From positions 1 to 34,080 of IMG/VR virus record IMGVR_UViG_3300027714_000057: DNA of 34,080 nt; one strand, given 5' to 3'. The DNA is from a virus. This document shows positions 2,270 through 34,080 of the stretch, piece by piece. The stretch's first letter is position 1; the number at the start of each line of letters is the position of its first letter. The notes below the pieces were generated by a model. The model was not told the origin of the DNA. It ran no database searches and saw only the letters and a program-made list of their open reading frames with translations. The translations under genes were made by a program, and so were the position numbers.

Positions 2270-3091
2270 TTATCCTACCATGTAACTAACTGGTAATTCA
2301 AATGCTAATTGAATCTGATCCTCTAGTTTTTGTTGTTCATCTATTGCTTGTGTGTAGATTGTTTCACCGTTCATGGTAACACCGCCCAACATAGCAACAC
2401 CACTAAACTTAGATAGGTTTGCTCCCCATTGTTTTTTAATTAATGAAGTTGCATACCTTTTGAGATATATGTCATCAAAGATATCAGTGTAAGATGTTGG
2501 ATCAACCTTACGATAACACTCTATGATTATAAACTCACTATCAGCTACAATTTTATTCTCCCAATCCATATCAATATAAAGACGGTTTTGGTGTTGATTA
2601 AAACGTATAGGTGTCTCACCTACAAGAATATGCTCAAGGAAATCTAAATTCTGCATTTGTAACTGATAGTTCATAACAGAAGTAGATGAGAAGTCATAGA
2701 GATCATTTAATCTTAATTGATAACGAACATCAAATAAACTTCCACCACCACCAGTATCAGTTAAAGGAAATACTCTTAGAATAGAAACAACAGATTGTGG
2801 AACAGGAATCCAGTTGTTACCTTCTTTCCATGTTGAAGATACAGAAGTATCTACTACATCCGTTGCCGTGGTTGAACTATTAGACCTTGCTCGTGTTATA
2901 TCAGCTTCTGTTACCAGATGTTTTAGATACATCTTTTCAATACCATCATAGTGATATTGTGCAAAATATTGCAAAGCTTCATCTATACGATCATCTACTT
3001 GATCATCTGATACGTTAATATCAATAACACCAGAACCAAGAGCTCTAAGACAGTAAGTTTTAAAGGTTGCTTTAGTAGAAGGTATAGCCAT
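2270..3091 (-). CDS. 13: Neck protein gp13
   Basis: The product is 273 aa, close to the T4 family length of about 300. gp13 forms the neck ring with gp14 after DNA packaging. Residues 1-60 show the recognisable gp13 start: KATFKTYCLRALGSGVIDIN, a DDQVDDRIDEALQYFAQYHYDG segment, then YLKHLVTEADI. The C-terminal half includes FNQHQNRLYIDMDW and a LKRYATSLIKKQWGANLSKF helix typical of the family. The start is clear, with AAAGGAG a few bases upstream and a TATAAATA late promoter 21 bp upstream. Four bases separate it from gp14. Confidence 0.9.
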   Translation of the reverse strand: MAIPSTKATFKTYCLRALGSGVIDINVSDDQVDDRIDEALQYFAQYHYDGIEKMYLKHLVTEADITRARSNSSTTATDVVDTSVSSTWKEGNNWIPVPQSVVSILRVFPLTDTGGGGSLFDVRYQLRLNDLYDFSSTSVMNYQLQMQNLDFLEHILVGETPIRFNQHQNRLYIDMDWENKIVADSEFIIIECYRKVDPTSYTDIFDDIYLKRYATSLIKKQWGANLSKFSGVAMLGGVTMNGETIYTQAIDEQQKLEDQIQLAFELPVSYMVG

Positions 3092-3111
3092 ATAATTAAC
3101 TCCTTTCTACA

Positions 3112-3119
3112 TATTTATA
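3112..3119 (-). promoter_or_regulatory. T4-type late promoter for gp13-gp14
   Basis: TATAAATA lies on the minus strand 21 bp upstream of the gp13 ATG and just after the end of the 785-aa adhesin gene. The downstream sequence holds the AAAGGAG ribosome-binding site. Confidence 0.8.
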
Positions 3120-3166
3120 AGAGTAACCATCTTGTTGACTAATTATCATATTAAGAACTTGATAAT

Positions 3167-5524
3167 TTATCTGGCCCGAGACTGGGAAACGCCTACCCCA
3201 CCGAATGGAGCTTCTCCCCAAGCACTAAATAGATTTTTTGCTACATTACCGTTTATGTCGGCCGCCGATTCCCTCAATTTAAAGCCATTAGATAATATGT
3301 CGATATCGATCAGATCTGTTTCCATAACCACATTCCGACCAAAATTAAGTCCGTCTGTCACTGTGTTAAAAGGATTTTGACCTGTATCGTACCAGTATCC
3401 GTTTCTATTACCATCAAATCTTCTTATGAAAATAGCTCTTGGCCGAAAACCGCAAAACACAAAAGTTCCATTAGCAGAAGCATTACCTACGTAATTCCCA
3501 TGCTTCTGATACCCAGGAACATCAGCATATAAGTAGGCTAAATAGGTTCCATCTTCAGTATTGCCAGCGTTATCAACAACAAAAACACTGGCGTTATGAG
3601 TTGCAGCAAAATAAGAACTAGAACTTGATTCAACAGAACTTTGAACACTGCCAGGTTCACTAATCGGAATATTAAAATTATCACCTGTTAGGGCTGTATG
3701 CCATGCGAAGGTAGCCGCGCCAGTGTCTCGCCGCATTACCATAATAAAGCCAGGCTTTACCCCTAAACTGTGCGAAATCGACTGAGTTGCGCTGTCATTT
3801 CCAGTATAGAGCACGATATCAAAACCTTCAGTCGCGCCCTCTTTGAATCCCACTAACGTATTTGGGCTTGTATTAGTATTATATTGTCCATCAGTGCCAA
3901 GAGTAACGCCGTCAGCGTCAAAAGATTTGACGCCTTGTGCTACTGTACTTTCTCCAGCAGCCGTATTCATTGGCATTTCTTTTGTAGCACCTCGAATGGT
4001 ATCTACAAAATTCCAGTCAGAAGAACCGCTATGATCTCGTACCCAAACTGCGTTAGGAGATAGTGCTGTATTGCCTCCAAATGCGCGAGCGTTTTCTGAT
4101 CCTGTGCCAGTAAAAGTCTGAACGTTCATTGCCGCGCTTGGGTCTTTGATTGCTGGTTCGGGCAAATTAGCGGTGCATAAAGCTAGATACCCAGACGGTG
4201 GCGCATATTTAAAATCTCCAAAACCATTTCCGTCAGATTCGCCGCCTTCTCCGTCGATAGGAGATGTGCCAAAGTTGGCTTGGACAATGGCAGAAGTTCC
4301 GGTGGTGAAATACCAAGTTTGGCCAGCCTCTAAATCAGTCACTGCTATTTTTGATGAATTGTTAATAAAAAATTCTAAATTTAAACCGTCGAGATCAACA
4401 GCCATGCTGACAACGTCATCTGCACTTATATTGCCGAGGTTAGAGGTTGTGATGGCACCGTCTTTCCAGTAGCGACCGCTTGAATCGTAGCCTCTACCTT
4501 CTCCATCAAGTGAAAATTGAAAGTTTAATGTAGTCGAATCTTTGGCTAACATGACCATTGCTGTTGAAGAGATAGTGGTAGGGACAAACTCAGCATACCA
4601 TTTTCCTGAAGTCATACCAAACGGGGATGCGTTATTTTGTGTCAATGATACAGTACCCCCGTTTCCTACAGTTCCAACAGTGCCACTGTTTAAAATTATT
4701 TTACTTAGAGTAGCAAAATTTGATGACCCTGAATCAGCATTGTCAGCTGGAGAATCTTTTATTGTGTCGTTATCAGCAATTCCTGACGCAGCCCAATGAT
4801 TTGCTTCTCCACTGGTGTCAGTTCCTGGCCCGTTACCTACCGATTCAAGAATTTTCATTTCCAAATAATAGCCATTGTCGCCAAACGTAAGCGATTGATC
4901 TTCTATGGAGATAGCTCTCCACCCCCCATTTGAATCGAATTCGCCAAAGCTGTTGGCTAGTAATCCTTGGCCATCAATCCACACAATCTCTGCCATAAGA
5001 CCATTATAGAAATTACCTCCATTATGATCCTCTCCAATTTTATGAGCGCAAGCAGAGTTCCAACCAGGCACATCTGCCCCAGAATCGGGTTGGTTGTCGG
5101 TTGAGAAAGAAGTGATTCTCACGCCGTTAACGAATATTTGGCTTCGATTGCCATTTCCTCGGCTCGTATCCATTGACCAGACAAAATTATACCAACCAGT
5201 TGGGTCTAGGAATTTTTGAGTGGTAACTTGATTCACCGTTCCAGTCGCATCGACAAAACTTAGATTTCCAGCTGCTAAGAATTGCATTTGATGATCGTTA
5301 CCATCGGTGCAAGAAAACATCTTAACGTTCGTTAATAACTCCGTTCTTTTAGTCCACCAACTAAGAGTAAATGCTTTTTGAGAAGTTGGAGTTCCAAACG
5401 TCAAATCCATATGAGCAGAATCAGGTGGATTAAATCGAAGAGAATTTGAAACTGCATAACCGCCAGCTGATGGGGGAGTACTGGCAGTACCAAAACCAAG
5501 GACATTATATCCAAAACTTGTCAT
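3167..5524 (-). CDS. Lectin/SPRY-like tail adhesin, compositionally foreign
   Basis: This 785-aa protein looks like a receptor-binding or tail-fibre-tip protein. Residues about 35-200 resemble a LamG/concanavalin-A jelly roll (SLRFNPPDSAHMDLTF, FTLSWWTKR, WYNFVWSMDTSRGNG, IFVNGVRITSF, GLMAEIVWIDGQ). Residues about 285-430 resemble a SPRY-type beta-sandwich (GMTSGKWYAEF, FSLDGEGRGYDSSGRYWKDG, VSMAVDLDGLNLEFFINN). Residues about 470-770 form a third beta-rich module (NAVWVRDHSGSSDWNFVDT, FDIVLYTGNDSATQSISHSLG, GYWYDTGQNPFNTVTDGLNFG), which I recall from marine phage tail proteins under a DUF7483-type name. G+C is visibly higher than in its neighbours (line 3181-3240 is about 48%, against about 30% at 8101-8160), suggesting recent acquisition. 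It starts 12 bp after fibre B with AAGGA upstream, so it is probably co-transcribed. The role is inferred from domains and position. Confidence 0.75.
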   Translation of the reverse strand: MTSFGYNVLGFGTASTPPSAGGYAVSNSLRFNPPDSAHMDLTFGTPTSQKAFTLSWWTKRTELLTNVKMFSCTDGNDHQMQFLAAGNLSFVDATGTVNQVTTQKFLDPTGWYNFVWSMDTSRGNGNRSQIFVNGVRITSFSTDNQPDSGADVPGWNSACAHKIGEDHNGGNFYNGLMAEIVWIDGQGLLANSFGEFDSNGGWRAISIEDQSLTFGDNGYYLEMKILESVGNGPGTDTSGEANHWAASGIADNDTIKDSPADNADSGSSNFATLSKIILNSGTVGTVGNGGTVSLTQNNASPFGMTSGKWYAEFVPTTISSTAMVMLAKDSTTLNFQFSLDGEGRGYDSSGRYWKDGAITTSNLGNISADDVVSMAVDLDGLNLEFFINNSSKIAVTDLEAGQTWYFTTGTSAIVQANFGTSPIDGEGGESDGNGFGDFKYAPPSGYLALCTANLPEPAIKDPSAAMNVQTFTGTGSENARAFGGNTALSPNAVWVRDHSGSSDWNFVDTIRGATKEMPMNTAAGESTVAQGVKSFDADGVTLGTDGQYNTNTSPNTLVGFKEGATEGFDIVLYTGNDSATQSISHSLGVKPGFIMVMRRDTGAATFAWHTALTGDNFNIPISEPGSVQSSVESSSSSYFAATHNASVFVVDNAGNTEDGTYLAYLYADVPGYQKHGNYVGNASANGTFVFCGFRPRAIFIRRFDGNRNGYWYDTGQNPFNTVTDGLNFGRNVVMETDLIDIDILSNGFKLRESAADINGNVAKNLFSAWGEAPFGGVGVSQSRAR

Positions 5525-7636: not shown

Positions 7637-10600
7637 TTATGTTACCAAAGCCATTGCTCGAAATTCACTAATTCTTGGTGGTTCAGCTGAATTTGTTCCT
7701 TGCATGATAATTTTTATTTGAAATGATATGAACTCATCTAGTGATTCACCAATACCGTCATCTGTAACACCACCAGTATAACTATATTCTCTAAAGTCTT
7801 CATTGTCAGCAGAAGCAGGAACAACTTCATCAGGTGAACCATCTGTATTAAAATTTGTATAACCAAGATCATCAAAGTCAGATGCATCATCTGTTCTTAG
7901 AAGTTTAAATAAAACTTTAATTTCAGAAGTTGCAGGCCTATGAGCAGAAAATAATACTTTCAATGCACTTGCAGGATTTTCTAGCGCAATTTGTTTTGTG
8001 ATATAAATTGCAGCATTATTATCACCTTCTGGTTCTGTTGAAGGAAAGAAGTCTGTTGTTGGATAAACATCTGATGATGTATCTATATTATCTAACCTAT
8101 TTGAGATTGCAAATAAAGATGTTCTTTGTAAATCAATAACAGGAGAAACAGTAGAAGATGTTGTTGTTAATTTTATTGGTATAAATAAAGATTTTATTCC
8201 ACTTAGTTCATTAGTTTCATTAATACCAGAACACACCATGTGTGGTAAGTCAAATTTATAGTTATCATTTAGTGGTATTGTTCTTGCATTTGCAGCACTC
8301 AAGGTAGAGAAAGAAGTTTGAGCTCCAGAAGCACTTGTTGAAGTTGTAGGTCTAATACTCGTTTCAATTGTAGTTCCAGGCAACTCTAATGAACCAATCA
8401 TAGTTTGTACATAATCTATAATAGCATTTTCTGTAGCAGTTATAACACTACCACCAATTTCAGCAACACCACTTTTAGCAAATGTTAAAACAACATTATC
8501 ACTTAATGATTCAGCACCACTTAATACAAGAGTGTTTTGGTTTGTAACTGTAGTAACTGTTATGCCTGAATCAACTCCAGTTCCAGAAACGGACATTCCT
8601 ACTTCAATAGTTCCTCTATTACCATCTACTACTAGAGCAGTTGTACTACTGATAGCACCATTAACCAGTGCTGTAGCACCATTAATAACAGGAGGAGATG
8701 TTAGAGTTATTGTATAACTATCAATTCCAATATTTGCAAGTGATGTATGAGTTTTATTGATCTCTGTCAAAGGTACTCTATGTATAATATAAAGTTCAAC
8801 AGTTGCACCGTCAGCATGAGTAGCTGCGGTTGTACTATTTTCTCCTCTAGAAAGAACAGAAACATTGTTTCCAGATATTGCAGTATATTTCATTATCTCA
8901 TCATCAATTTTAATAAACCATTCTGATGATGCACTATTTGCATATTTACCAGTAGTATCATCAAAGTTAGTTCCACTAGTTAGAGTTAATGTTGCAGCTG
9001 TAGCAGTTATATCACCATTAAGTGTTGTAGAAGCACCAGACTTTACACCATCAATAGTAACATTATTACTAGTAGAATACATATGGTGATCTATGTGTTT
9101 AACTTTTACAGTAGTACTACCATCTTCTAAAAATATAGAGTTTACAGCTAAAGTTCTTACAGGAATTACTGTATTTTGCATAGTTAAAGTTCCACTAGTA
9201 TTAGCTTTAAATTTTGCAGTCTTTAATTTAAACTTCAAATCTTCTAAGAAAGACGGGGCCCAAGTACTATTATTACTAGATTTAAATAAAACACCAGTAT
9301 GAGGTTGTTCAGATATAGTTCTTGTTCCACCAATATCTGTCTCTCCCATTCGAGCAACCCAAACTTTATATTCTTGTGAGACTGATATTACTGAAATACA
9401 ATACTCAGTGCCAGGTTTTACATATACTGGAGATTTAAAAGTAAATGTTGTTGCAGTTGCTCCAGTATTAGATGTATTGATATCTGATGCGTCTTTAATT
9501 ACTCTACCAAATGGTAATATCTTTTTGCCAGGATAACCGTTAATAACATTTCTAATTTCTACTCTCATTGGAAGAGTTTCATCTTTATCAGAGAAAAAAA
9601 GATCAAGAGAAGTAATAAATCTTCCATCTGAACCTGATGATCCCTGCACAGTAAATGTTTGAGAAAGAGGATCATCACCATCACTAAATGATGGTTCACC
9701 AATCTGGAAAGTATCTCTGGATACAACTCTTGATGTTGAACTTGATTGATTTAAGGTTGTTTGTACAACTGTAGCATTTCTAGTTGCAATAATTGTCTCT
9801 TGTTCAGTTTCTAAAATACCTTTAGCTGTATATATTGCATTTCCAGCAGTAGTAAGGGAATCTGTTAAAGCGTCAGCTGTAGAGTTTGTATCAGCTGATG
9901 CATCACTTCCAGTAAGATTTTTAGAACTTGATGTTAATCTGAACTGAACTTCTCCAGTTGAAAATTTAAGATTACCATCTATTTTTGGGTCTGGTATTAC
10001 AAAAGTTCCTTCAACTTTACCAACATTTGTTGTTATTAAAGGACTTCCAGCAATAACAGTTGTATCTGTTGAATAGGTATTATTCAAAGGAGTAACATGA
10101 ACATTTACATCTAATTTATCAAAGAATACAAAAAGTTTTGTATTTGGTCTAAATCCTGTGCCAATAAAACTTATAGTTCGAGCTCGCATTACAGGAATAA
10201 GGGCTCTGCTAACTACACGTAATCCTTGTGCTTCTCTATCAACCTGTTCAATAACATTAGTACGTATTCCAGTTCTACTTCGATCTGTTCTGACTGTAGT
10301 AGTTGTTCTACCAAGTCCAGCATCCCCATTGCCTCCAGCTCGAAGAACTTCAGTTCTAGTTGTGCTACCTGACCATTGAGTTTGCCAAGCGTTCCAAATA
10401 GTTCCTATTTGGTTTTCAACTGAAGCTGTAACCGCATCAAAATTTCCATCAACATTAATAATAAGTTCTGGAGCTACTTCTGTTTCAAACCATTCGTCAC
10501 TGTCAGGTGATAATTCAATTGTACCAACCCATTCGTGAGATAAAAATGGTGCTACTTTTTCAATTCTAGATGCATAAGGTTGTTCTGTAAAAGTTTCTTC

Positions 10601-15883: not shown

Positions 15884-16582
15884 TTAAGCCGGTGCCCAAG
15901 AGGCTACAGCCATTACTTCTAAATTAGACGATGACGGTGTGGCTGAAATGTCAGTTAATGAGTTAGCACTTAAACTACTTGCGCCTGTGAAGGCATCGTC
16001 AACCTGGGCATCGAAATCTTCGGTTCCTAGCCCTGACCAAGTCCAAGAAACATTTAAGTTCGATCTTGCTATACCAATCTGAACGCCCCCTGTGGGTAAA
16101 GTAAGACCTGTTATAGCAGCAGGGGTGGAAGCTGAATCGGCCTCAGCATATTCATCAGCGGCTCCATCGACTTGCCACACACCGCAGCTACATCTACTAG
16201 ACGCAGCGCCCAACGTAACAACAATATTACCAGTGGCTGAAGTTATCCCGTTAACTTCCCACAATTCACAGAAAATGCCTGATGCAGCTTGATTCTTTAC
16301 AAGAGCGCATGCGTTACCGTCAACTGTGATGCCTGTAGCAGCAGCCGTGGCTGAGTGAGTAATGCCAACGACCACTTTATGAGCGGTAGTATTGCCTAAA
16401 TCCACATCGGAGAATGTGAAGGGAGTGCTGCTTGATGTAATGACTTGGGAAGACGCAAAGCTTAGTCCGCTCACTGAGACCCAAGTGTTTGAATTTAAAG
16501 ATGCTATATTACTTGCGGCAGTTCCGTTCCAAGAAGCAATGTTGTTTTCTGCTATACCATTAATTGTTGAAATATTTGCCAT
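15884..16582 (-). CDS. G+C-rich adhesin-like virion protein
   Basis: This 232-aa protein has no family I can name with confidence. The N-terminus has short repeats (STINGIAENNIASWNGTAASNIA), a pattern I know from the start of many marine phage tail proteins. The rest is a Ser/Thr/Ala-rich beta domain with two close cysteine pairs (CSCGVW near residue 132 and earlier CAL/CEL). G+C is clearly above its neighbours (line 16141-16200 is 53%). The ATG overlaps the stop of fibre A by one base (TAATG), so it is translated with that fibre. A fibre-tip or decoration role is inferred from this coupling and from the parallel arrangement at 3167-7405. Confidence 0.7.
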   Translation of the reverse strand: MANISTINGIAENNIASWNGTAASNIASLNSNTWVSVSGLSFASSQVITSSSTPFTFSDVDLGNTTAHKVVVGITHSATAAATGITVDGNACALVKNQAASGIFCELWEVNGITSATGNIVVTLGAASSRCSCGVWQVDGAADEYAEADSASTPAAITGLTLPTGGVQIGIARSNLNVSWTWSGLGTEDFDAQVDDAFTGASSLSANSLTDISATPSSSNLEVMAVASWAPA

Positions 16583-30739: not shown

Positions 30740-31804
30740 CTACTCCTGACCATCTTCATCAACACTCTCCAATGTAATCTCTTCAATTTCTTTTGAGCCA
30801 TACTTAAACTCTGTCTCACATGCTAGGTCTAACTTATGCATAATATCTTCCGTGAAATATTTATGAGGATTGTTAAGTATCTCTTTACCAAACTGCTTCG
30901 TTCCATCAGGCATCTCAAATCGTGTGGATACCTTCTTAAAGATTTCATACTTCTCTGCAAGTTCCAGCAGACCATAGTAACGATCAAGTCCCTTATCATA
31001 AGTTAATCTTACATCAACCATCTTATTCTCTTTGGTGAGTCTCGACTTATGATTCTTACAGTGAATGATATTACCGATTACTTCTGTACCATCCTTCTCC
31101 TTCTTCTTAGAAAGATACACAATCGAACTCGCTGCGTATTTTAGACCACTACCACCACCCATCTCTTTGGTGGAGAAGAGTCCCATACTCTCGTAAGTAT
31201 GATTCGTTACTACCATCGGAACATTCGCTCGCCCCAACTTTAGAGTCAGAACTCGAAACGCTGCTTTGAGAACCTGAGCTCTCGTCATATCCCTTGTCTC
31301 TTTACCATCAGAAGTATCTTCGACTTCCTTGGTAGTACTCAGCATACCCAGAGAATCCAGACATATAAACAGAGGCTTTCGCTCCGATTCGTCTTGTGCA
31401 AGATACTGATCAAGAACCTTCAGGGCTTGAGTACGAAACTCCTGCACAGTAGTCACAGGAAATATCACCATTCTCTTCGTGTCAATTCCTCTTTCAATTA
31501 CCATCTGCTTTGTAATCGCACTTTCACTCTCAAAATATATGACACCTGCATTTGGGTCTACATCAAGAAAGTTCTTTACAATTCCCATAAGAAAGTATGT
31601 CTTACCTGTTGCACTTTCACCTGCGAGAGCTGTAATCTTATTTGCAGGCAATCCACCATTCACTGAACCACTCAATAGTCCATTCAGTATGTATGAACCT
31701 GTGTCAATAAAAGTATTAACGTCACCTGCCTCTACACCATCATCCACAATAGATGCATACTCATTACCAACTTCCTTGATAATGTCTCTTAAAAAATCAC
31801 TCAT
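30740..31804 (-). CDS. uvsX: UvsX RecA-like recombinase
   Basis: The product is 354 aa (T4 UvsX is 391). It forms filaments on single-stranded DNA and drives strand exchange for recombination-dependent replication and repair. The Walker A motif is G-ESATGKT at residues 62-69. Walker B is LFICLD ending at D150. [11 protein letters not shown] (198-208) is the L1-proximal motif, and [18 protein letters not shown] (214-231) follows as in UvsX proteins. The C-terminal part includes [14 protein letters not shown] (307-320) and an acidic end. The ATG directly follows the stop of the 69-aa gene (TAAATG). Pieces of its 3' coding region recur in the 80-aa gene at 32717-32959. Confidence 0.93.
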
Positions 31805-32716: not shown

Positions 32717-32959
32717 TTAACTAGTTCTCGTATTTTGTATTGTATTCCTCATATCTTCCGTGAAATATTTATGAGGATTGTTAAGTATCTCTACTCTCCA
32801 ATGTAATCTCTCTTCATCAACTGCACATTCATCACCCATACTAGTCAGTGTAGTCTCTCTGAGAGCTCTCAGTGTAGTCATGGCAGCCCTTGTTCTTCCA
32901 TACTTCAATAGGTTCATAACAATATCGATATCACTCAGCGTCTTATTAAAATCAGTCAT
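32717..32959 (-). CDS. Chimeric 80-aa protein with uvsX-derived C-terminal part
   Basis: Residues 1-46 (TDFNKTLSDIDIVMNLLKYG, RTRAAMTTLRALRETTLTSM) form a short helical region that I do not recognise. Residues 47-69 are built from uvs[17 protein letters not shown] (57-69) repeats UvsX 308-320 and comes from a 42-bp perfect match. It is preceded by a 19-bp match read in a different frame (RLHWR) and by an 11-bp match (VDEE). The gene has a good start (AGGA seven bases before the ATG) and two strong promoters upstream, so it may be expressed. Function unknown; the UvsX peptide alone has no catalytic motif. Confidence 0.6.
   Translation of the reverse strand: MTDFNKTLSDIDIVMNLLKYGRTRAAMTTLRALRETTLTSMGDECAVDEERLHWRVEILNNPHKYFTEDMRNTIQNTRTS
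32751..32821 (-). repeat. Three uvsX-derived tracts in rearranged order
   Basis: 32751-32792 is identical to 30843-30884 (42 bp). 32793-32811 is identical to 30764-30782 (19 bp). 32811-32821 is identical to 30753-30763 (11 bp). All are in the same orientation as in uvsX, but their order along the strand is reversed, and they join at GAGA/AGAG microhomologies. Confidence 0.85.
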
Positions 32960-33195: not shown

Positions 33196-33386
33196 GTCCC
33201 TTTATGAACTATTTCATCGATATTCATGGGGGAAACTAAGCTATCTGTGATAATATCTGAGTATGTGTGGAAATAATGCTGAAACTCTGCAAACTTTAAT
33301 CCCTATGACATATATCGTATATACCTTTATTTGTACCTTTTTAATATATGGTCAAATATGGGTATTTATGGGTTTCTGTGGTAGAC

Positions 33387-33788
33387 TTATCCGCAAAACC
33401 CCCAATTATCTTTATATGGAGTGTATTTACCTTCTCTCTTGAGAGCAATCCTCAAATTCTTTACATCTCCTGTGGCACTTCTAGGTATCATATACCATGT
33501 ATCATGAACTACATCATGCACAGCAAAGAAGTCTATAGACTCTGGTGGATATGGATATTTACCTTGTTTGCCTGACTTGACAGCGTTTGTTCCCTTACAG
33601 ATGTTGACATTACCATCTCCCTTGATAGATGATTTGACTTGCACTTTGAGTAGTTTACTATTAACATCTACAATAAGGTCATAATTTTCTGTTGTAAATG
33701 GTGTGCTTACACTATACCCATGTTCAATCATACATTTATGAGCAAATATCATCTCTGACCGTTCACCTTGTTTTACTGTATTCTTCAT
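33387..33788 (-). CDS. PD-(D/E)XK nuclease-like protein
   Basis: This 133-aa protein matches, from memory, the PDDEXK_5 type of small endonuclease-like proteins, some linked to group I introns. The pattern is KQGERSEMIFAHKCMIEHGY (acidic residue E9 or E12), then NYDLIVD with D37, then VQVKSS with Q50 and K52. This gives the E...D...QxK catalytic set. The C-terminal part DFFAVHDVVHDTWYMIPR is also family-like. It overlaps the stop of the SWIM gene by one base (TAATG). Possible roles are a DNA-processing nuclease in recombination/repair or a homing-type enzyme; no intron is visible here. The substrate cannot be told from the sequence. Confidence 0.75.
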   Translation of the reverse strand: MKNTVKQGERSEMIFAHKCMIEHGYSVSTPFTTENYDLIVDVNSKLLKVQVKSSIKGDGNVNICKGTNAVKSGKQGKYPYPPESIDFFAVHDVVHDTWYMIPRSATGDVKNLRIALKREGKYTPYKDNWGFCG

Positions 33789-33991
33789 TATCCCTCTAGC
33801 ATTGATACTACTTGTCTTGTATGTCTACATTTACTATTGTACATGAACCCTTTACACTCGCATGTAAATCCTTTATCATGCATTGTTATCTTGTATTCAT
33901 CACCCTTCTTACTACCAGCAACTGGCCATATGGTGTTTACGAGGAAATGGTTCTTGGTGTTGATTTCTTTTGATTTGTAATATCTTTTCAT
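33788..33991 (-). CDS. SWIM zinc-finger mini-protein
   Basis: This 67-aa protein has a C-terminal SWIM signature: C44-x-C46, eight residues, C55-x-H57 (FTCECKGFMYNSKCRHTRQV). SWIM fingers bind one zinc and are known for binding DNA or proteins; they occur in recombination-linked Sws1/Shu2 proteins and some transposases. The N-terminal 35 residues are basic with short strands (VNTIWPVAGSKKGDEYKITM). It overlaps the upstream gene by four bases (ATGA) and the nuclease gene by one base, so the three are translated together. It could be a DNA-binding partner of the nuclease; that is inference from coupling. Confidence 0.75.
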   Translation of the reverse strand: MKRYYKSKEINTKNHFLVNTIWPVAGSKKGDEYKITMHDKGFTCECKGFMYNSKCRHTRQVVSMLEG

Positions 33992-34080
33992 AGGGCATTA
34001 GCAACTACACGAAGTTTTGGAGATTTTTCAAGTTTTTCCATCGCAGATTTCAACCGTTCATAAACAGTGGTATCACTCAC
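33988..34080 (-). CDS. C-terminal end of an upstream gene (partial)
   Basis: An open minus-strand frame enters from the right edge and ends at TGA 33988-33990, giving 30 residues in the window: SDTTVYERLKSAMEKLEKSP followed by KLRVVANAL. They form a charged amphipathic helix. The stop overlaps the ATG of the SWIM gene (ATGA), which supports a real coding end. The GTG at the very edge may not be the start. The protein cannot be identified from this fragment. Confidence 0.6.
   Translation of the reverse strand: MSDTTVYERLKSAMEKLEKSPKLRVVANAL

Follow-up and report, generated by a model that had tools for sequence, protein, structure and literature searches.

I-Ssp6803I (2OST) is encoded in an intron, and the Shu2/SWS1 type is the SWIM partner of RecA/Rad51-type recombinases. 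For intronless homing, two reports describe site-specific cutting and repair by copying (PMC6083498, PMC2993671); the first of them presents F-CphI of cyanophage S-PM2 as a free-standing homing endonuclease of a marine cyanophage. In PMC4925675, gp5.3 of the phiYeO3-12 type is listed as a homing endonuclease. Barth et al. (2023) describe hotspots, close to replisome genes, in which a single locus carries nucleases of different classes (PMC10448857). In fungal mitochondrial mobile ORFs, an endonuclease ORF lies behind a host gene whose tail is repeated after it (PMC3630166).

The DNA investigated here, called the window, is a virus record of 34,080 bases with two coupled ORFs at its right end on the minus strand. 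A preliminary description had proposed that they encode a SWIM zinc finger protein and a PD-(D/E)XK nuclease, which would form a recombination or DNA-processing pair or, as a fallback, a selfish nuclease cassette. The arrangement is real and was correctly seen. The 133-aa ORF very probably encodes an endonuclease of a known kind, the free-standing PD-(D/E)XK homing type. It would have entered the genome of a T4-like marine phage as a bare ORF, at a hotspot that lies upstream of uvsX and directly behind the SWIM-like gene, which is probably no partner of it.

The two coupled reading frames

Both ORFs were recovered as described (Table 1), joined by a TAATG junction and preceded by an ATGA in which the TGA stop of the cut-off upstream ORF overlaps the SWIM-like start codon. 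Because the UvsX proteins of cultured phages closest to that of the window are those of Methylophilales phage Melnitz (77.7%) and Pelagibacter phage HTVC008M (70.4%), the window was assigned to a T4-like marine phage. The uvsX gene starts 1.6 kb past the end of the nuclease gene. Within an 80-aa "chimeric" ORF at 32717-32959 (minus strand), 50 bp match the 3' part of uvsX at 94% identity; this arrangement is retained in L002 and L008, and L006 retains the ORF.

Table 1. Coordinates of the features in the window
Feature	Position	Strand	Remark
uvsX (RecA-like recombinase)	30740..31804	-	context only
Conserved intergenic block (TGCGGATAAGTCT...)	33301..33396	-	follows the variable slot
Nuclease ORF, 133 aa, I-Ssp6803I-type PD-(D/E)XK (PF11645)	33387..33788	-	
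DNA absent from allele L003 (~94% identical)	33394..33785	-	net 392 bp; ends uncertain by a few bases
Nuclease Q50-V-K52	~33641-33633	-	
Nuclease D37	~33680-33678	-	
TAATG overlap of SWIM-like stop and nuclease start	33786..33790	-	
SWIM-like small zinc-finger ORF, 67 aa	33788..33991	-	CxCx8CxH at residues 44-57
Upstream ORF, 3' end	33988..34080	-	cut by the record end; other genes there in relatives

The nuclease scored 66 bits (E 4.5e-18) with Pfam PDDEXK_5 (PF11645), for which the curated cut-off is 26.1, and matched phrog_5018 with an E value of 8.4e-17. A profile of eight nuclease relatives matched I-Ssp6803I with an E value of 2.9e-13. The AlphaFold2 model had a mean pLDDT of 84.7, and its best Foldseek match was 2OST (TM 0.81, E 2e-9), followed by MepB and Hjc resolvases at E values of about 3e-3 and weaker. 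The score above the Pfam cut-off and the 2OST fold match thus confirmed the assignment to the PD-(D/E)XK nucleases. D37, Q50, V51, and K52 align with 2OST and are invariant in 12 of 12 sequences; we take D37 and Q50-V-K52 to be catalytic. All close members are found on uncultured contigs. The dN/dS was 0.13-0.26 for the nuclease (five of seven pairs, the unsaturated ones) and 0.08-0.34 for the SWIM-like gene (nine pairs). At the sequence level, both genes are evolving as coding sequence.

A low dN/dS would also be consistent with a domesticated Holliday-junction resolvase or a phage DNA-repair enzyme, and since the fold matches that follow 2OST include Hjc chains (E 3.6e-3 and weaker), the fold leaves room for a resolvase role. 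However, 2OST was by far the better match in both the structure and the profile search, and patchy presence, empty sites, and changing neighbors (see below) do not suit a housekeeping gene. We consider such a role very improbable.

The SWIM finger that had been read in the smaller ORF held up in its metal ligands and fell short in its profile score. C44, C46, C55, and H57 are conserved without exception in the 10 aligned members, with a spacing of 8 between CxC and CxH in nine of them and of 6 in L039, and PF04434 gave a sub-threshold match on the Cys/His region in 6 of the 10. None of the 10 reached the cut-off of 19.6 bits (best, 16.9), and a Pfam search with the window protein at E ≤ 10 yielded no match. 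Because no member exceeded the cut-off, the protein is named SWIM-like here. Its structure model (pLDDT 58.3) was too weak to inform on the fold; Foldseek and VIA-align applied to it gave no convincing match and no recognized SWIM chain. When the whole window was searched with PF04434, a sub-threshold match was obtained at 16163-16222 (minus strand) inside another ORF. It is probably due to chance and says little, since all 14 control genomes match at this loose limit.

In the scans done, the SWIM-like gene was present on 15 viral contigs besides the window, and a scan of species genomes gave no match. One query of cultured phages gave a single match and two further queries none. The match, in Aeromonas phage avDM11-UST (L027, E 4e-3), lies inside an RNA polymerase gene that is annotated in five pieces (2348-3928) and apparently frame-shifted, and was therefore treated as chance. 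In distant phages, a neighbor of the SWIM-like gene encodes a small protein that weakly resembles DNA ligase profiles, with phrog_19233 ranked first (L035 3972-4250, L038 4702-4773, L039 5694-5987). Upstream of the SWIM-like gene in L009, an 85-aa repeat protein (2820-3077) was observed. By eye, and with no Pfam match, it resembles repeats in an ORF of L021 (4396-5172) that looks like GIY-YIG and is coupled to the nuclease as its downstream neighbor.

Co-occurrence and nuclease exchange behind the SWIM-like gene

Co-occurrence was assessed by tblastn in 109 fetched loci, 67 with the nuclease and 31 with the SWIM-like gene. Both genes were found together in one locus, the window itself (L001). 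The SWIM-like gene was found in 0 of the 66 other nuclease loci and a nuclease of the window type in 0 of the 15 other SWIM contigs, counts that describe the neighborhood and not whole genomes, because flanks were mostly about 4 kb and some contigs short. The 30 other SWIM loci represent these 15 contigs, several of them fetched repeatedly, plus the chance match L027.

A recombination or DNA-processing pair acting with UvsX would fit the overlapping TAATG junction, and uvsX lies about 2.2 kb or less downstream of the SWIM-like gene in five contigs (window, L002, L031, L033, and L035). In L036, L037, L039, and L040, however, no uvsX match was found in the 3.4 to 6 kb read beyond the gene; the remaining SWIM contigs are too short to read. 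The junction itself is no evidence for a partner, because the nuclease clade is habitually coupled to other genes, also by overlapping junctions. With the co-occurrence counts, which answer a refutation test set in the preliminary description itself, and the unrelated nucleases found in the same slot, this proposal of the preliminary description is largely refuted, and we regard it as extremely improbable.

The slot directly behind the SWIM-like gene was readable in 14 SWIM contigs including the window, which are not independent cases because L006/L008, L009/L010, and L039/L040 are close pairs; two more contigs end too soon. A profile-identified nuclease occupies the slot in five of them: PDDEXK_5 in the window, HNH (HNH_3) in L006 and L008, and an endonuclease VII-like enzyme in L009 and L010, where the ORF carries an endonuclease VII profile. 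The HNH ORF scored 22.8 bits with HNH_3, just below the Pfam cut-off of 24.8, and PHROG HNH profiles matched it at 8.3e-10; L008 was assigned as having the same ORF as the scanned L006. The sixth slot, that of L005, contains a 207-aa ORF for which Pfam and PHROG scans gave no match. It is called nuclease-like because of HNH- and NUMOD3-like letters seen by eye, which we take as nuclease-like, and because ORFs of this type wander between sites as well (L099-L102). Outside L005, these ORFs carry or end in G(T/N)L(D/E)xF(I/L), which resembles a polymerase tail. The other eight slots (L002, L003, L004, L007, L035, L038, L039, and L040) are without a nuclease.

The nuclease is optional at two sites, where alleles with and without it were compared (window versus L003 and L012 versus L101). 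L003 is a clean empty allele with TGCGGATAAG directly after the SWIM-like stop codon. Over 1.7 kb, L002 and the window are 99% identical, yet L002 lacks the nuclease and retains GTATATGAGG. Since the HNH genes of L006 and L109 have the same sequence at their 3' end, this remnant looks like a scar. At the second site, nuclease copies with 92% identity lie behind a DnaB-like helicase gene in L012 and L013. The same junction occurs without the nuclease in L101, which shares 97.5% identity with L012; the flanks are 97.5% and 97.6% identical, and the 6-nt ATGAAA is shared at both ends. Overall, empty alleles were 2-6% divergent or scar-bearing. As the DNA missing from them is about as long as the ORF, the nuclease appears to be a bare ORF.

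Exchange also extends to the surroundings of the slot. The last SWIM codons vary with the nuclease (SMLEG in the window, RSITNE/KSITNE with HNH or HNH-like ORFs), and the gene upstream is swapped as well, with the breakpoint at the SWIM-like start codon. The SWIM query found nothing in L109; the slot is preceded by another gene there and contains the L006-type HNH gene. The intergenic block follows the slot in the window, L002, L003, L005, L006, L008, and L109. The block contains CCCATAAATACCCAT and follows the slot irrespective of the gene in it; it was also noted in L101 (2688-2762), and in L109 it is at 7760-7781 (minus strand).

Breakpoints that coincide with the ends of the SWIM-like gene could also point to a two-part selfish element, in which the SWIM-like protein would be the targeting or accessory subunit for interchangeable nucleases. 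The five profile-identified nucleases and the nuclease-like sixth in the 14 slots agree with this, as does the 95% DNA identity of the SWIM-like gene to that of L005 at only 80% identity of the UvsX proteins. Eight of the 14 slots are without a nuclease, however, PDDEXK_5, the L005 type, and HNH (L109) also occur without a neighboring SWIM-like gene, and no SWIM-nuclease fusion was seen among the loci, so that such an element seems very unlikely. Relatives with an empty slot or with other nucleases in it imply that the two genes are no working pair, and a dedicated SWIM-nuclease pair was rejected on the basis of co-occurrence and of nuclease exchange at one slot. Our preferred view is that the SWIM-like gene resides in a variable operon close to genes for recombination and replication; a link between it and UvsX is conceivable.

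Nuclease relatives and repeated gene tails

Relatives of the nuclease were found behind DNA polymerase (L014-L017, L020, L021, L023, and L046), DNA methyltransferases (L018, L019, and L042-L044), the clamp loader gp44 (L024 and L087 by profile; L084, L085, L086, and L088 by their tails), a gp33-type late-transcription regulator (L045), and other ORFs (L022, L025, L026, L089, and L090). Commonly, their start overlaps the stop of the preceding gene or follows it after a few bases. Empty alleles, slot exchange, and the variable positions of the clade bear out the fallback reading as a selfish nuclease cassette.

In 8 of 16 contexts (L014, L018, L020, L021, L024, L045, L046, and L084), the 3' end of the nuclease gene repeats that of the preceding gene with a local score of at least 12; the 16 are representatives from 28 loci, window included. 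Random tail pairs had a median of 6 and reached the top 1% at 11, their top 0.1% being inflated by identical contigs. The strongest repeat is that of L024, where 20 bases covering the end of the clamp-loader gene are identical. Repeated tails are ECNFK/ECEFK (clamp loader), GNTLF (gp33), and DFFG or LEDFFG (polymerase, a methylase). No repeat was detected for the window nuclease (score 6), its nearest relative L012, L022, L025, L042, L085, L087, and L089, all with scores of 6-8. Among distant relatives, a score of 12 was obtained in 1 of 26 testable loci (L081); 35 loci had been entered, 9 of them lacked an ORF within 400 b upstream, and L047, L067, L075, and L079 were excluded as duplicate or cut. 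The control of adjacent ORFs (n = 313) includes at least six entries that are nuclease pairs themselves, and its two top scores both stem from a single position in a contig that was fetched twice (L030/L004).

In L020, where the polymerase end was used for the test, the repeat continues beyond the stop codon. This speaks for duplication rather than for a useful peptide alone. In L030, a non-nuclease ORF behind the polymerase ends in STLEDFFG, as the polymerase does, so that for the LEDFFG class a functional tail rivals duplication. Of the 21 nt that precede the stop, 19 are the same in the polymerase gene of L030 and the ORF behind it. LEDFFG was seen to end a DNA polymerase (L014 733-3201), a methyltransferase (L018 646-1521), and an unassigned ORF (L030 1879-2439); we assume that it is possibly a clamp-binding motif.

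We find it conceivable, if somewhat short of probable, that the nuclease clade spreads by the route of the fungal mobile ORFs. A nuclease would enter a replication gene near its 3' end, leaving the tail of the host gene present twice, and the displaced copy would become the in-frame C terminus and stop of the nuclease. An LEDFFG-like tail might tether the enzyme to the sliding clamp at the fork. On this view, the copy in the window would have moved to the SWIM hotspot later, without a tail. A limited search that covered few subscription journals found no description of such duplicated tails for phage homing genes.

Probable insertion behind the SWIM-like gene and comparison with known systems

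The reading of the 133-aa ORF as a free-standing homing-type endonuclease is based on its family and fold, the nuclease-free alleles, the replacement of nucleases at the slot, and the wandering of the clade. In a mixed infection, the enzyme would cut an allele that lacks the nuclease, close to where the neighboring gene has its 3' end, and phage recombination (UvsX, gp46/47) would then copy the nuclease gene in. Insertion exactly behind the stop codon would leave the resident gene intact and have the nuclease translated by coupling. The SWIM-like gene would be the resident accessory gene of the variable operon. What had been guessed to be a recombination pair thereby becomes a documented mobile gene with alleles lacking it, and because such alleles exist, the putative homing target is open to direct test. 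The locus also shows that nucleases of unrelated families can occupy a single slot upstream of uvsX. Should the tail repeats of the relatives be confirmed, they would connect phage nucleases with the way in which fungal mobile ORFs insert.

The window nuclease resembles I-Ssp6803I in fold, in PF11645, and in the aligned YDLV...QVK core; I-Ssp6803I is intron-encoded, whereas the window nuclease is a bare ORF. F-CphI belongs to another nuclease family and adjoins psbA; it has an endonuclease VII motif, and an endonuclease VII profile was found for the slot nuclease of L009 and L010. The survey of Barth et al. considered here covers T5orf172 and IPA-HNH nucleases, whereas the locus described here has PDDEXK_5 beside a SWIM-like gene. 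Fungal mobile ORFs differ in nuclease family and host, and the window copy is without their repeat, but their tail repeat is like that in 8 of the 16 contexts of the nuclease clade. Gene 5.3 of T7 and its relatives are distant (about 33-35% identical to the nuclease) and come from another phage group, and no SWIM gene accompanies them, but they belong to the same family, are free-standing, and lie directly behind the DNA polymerase in T7-like phages.
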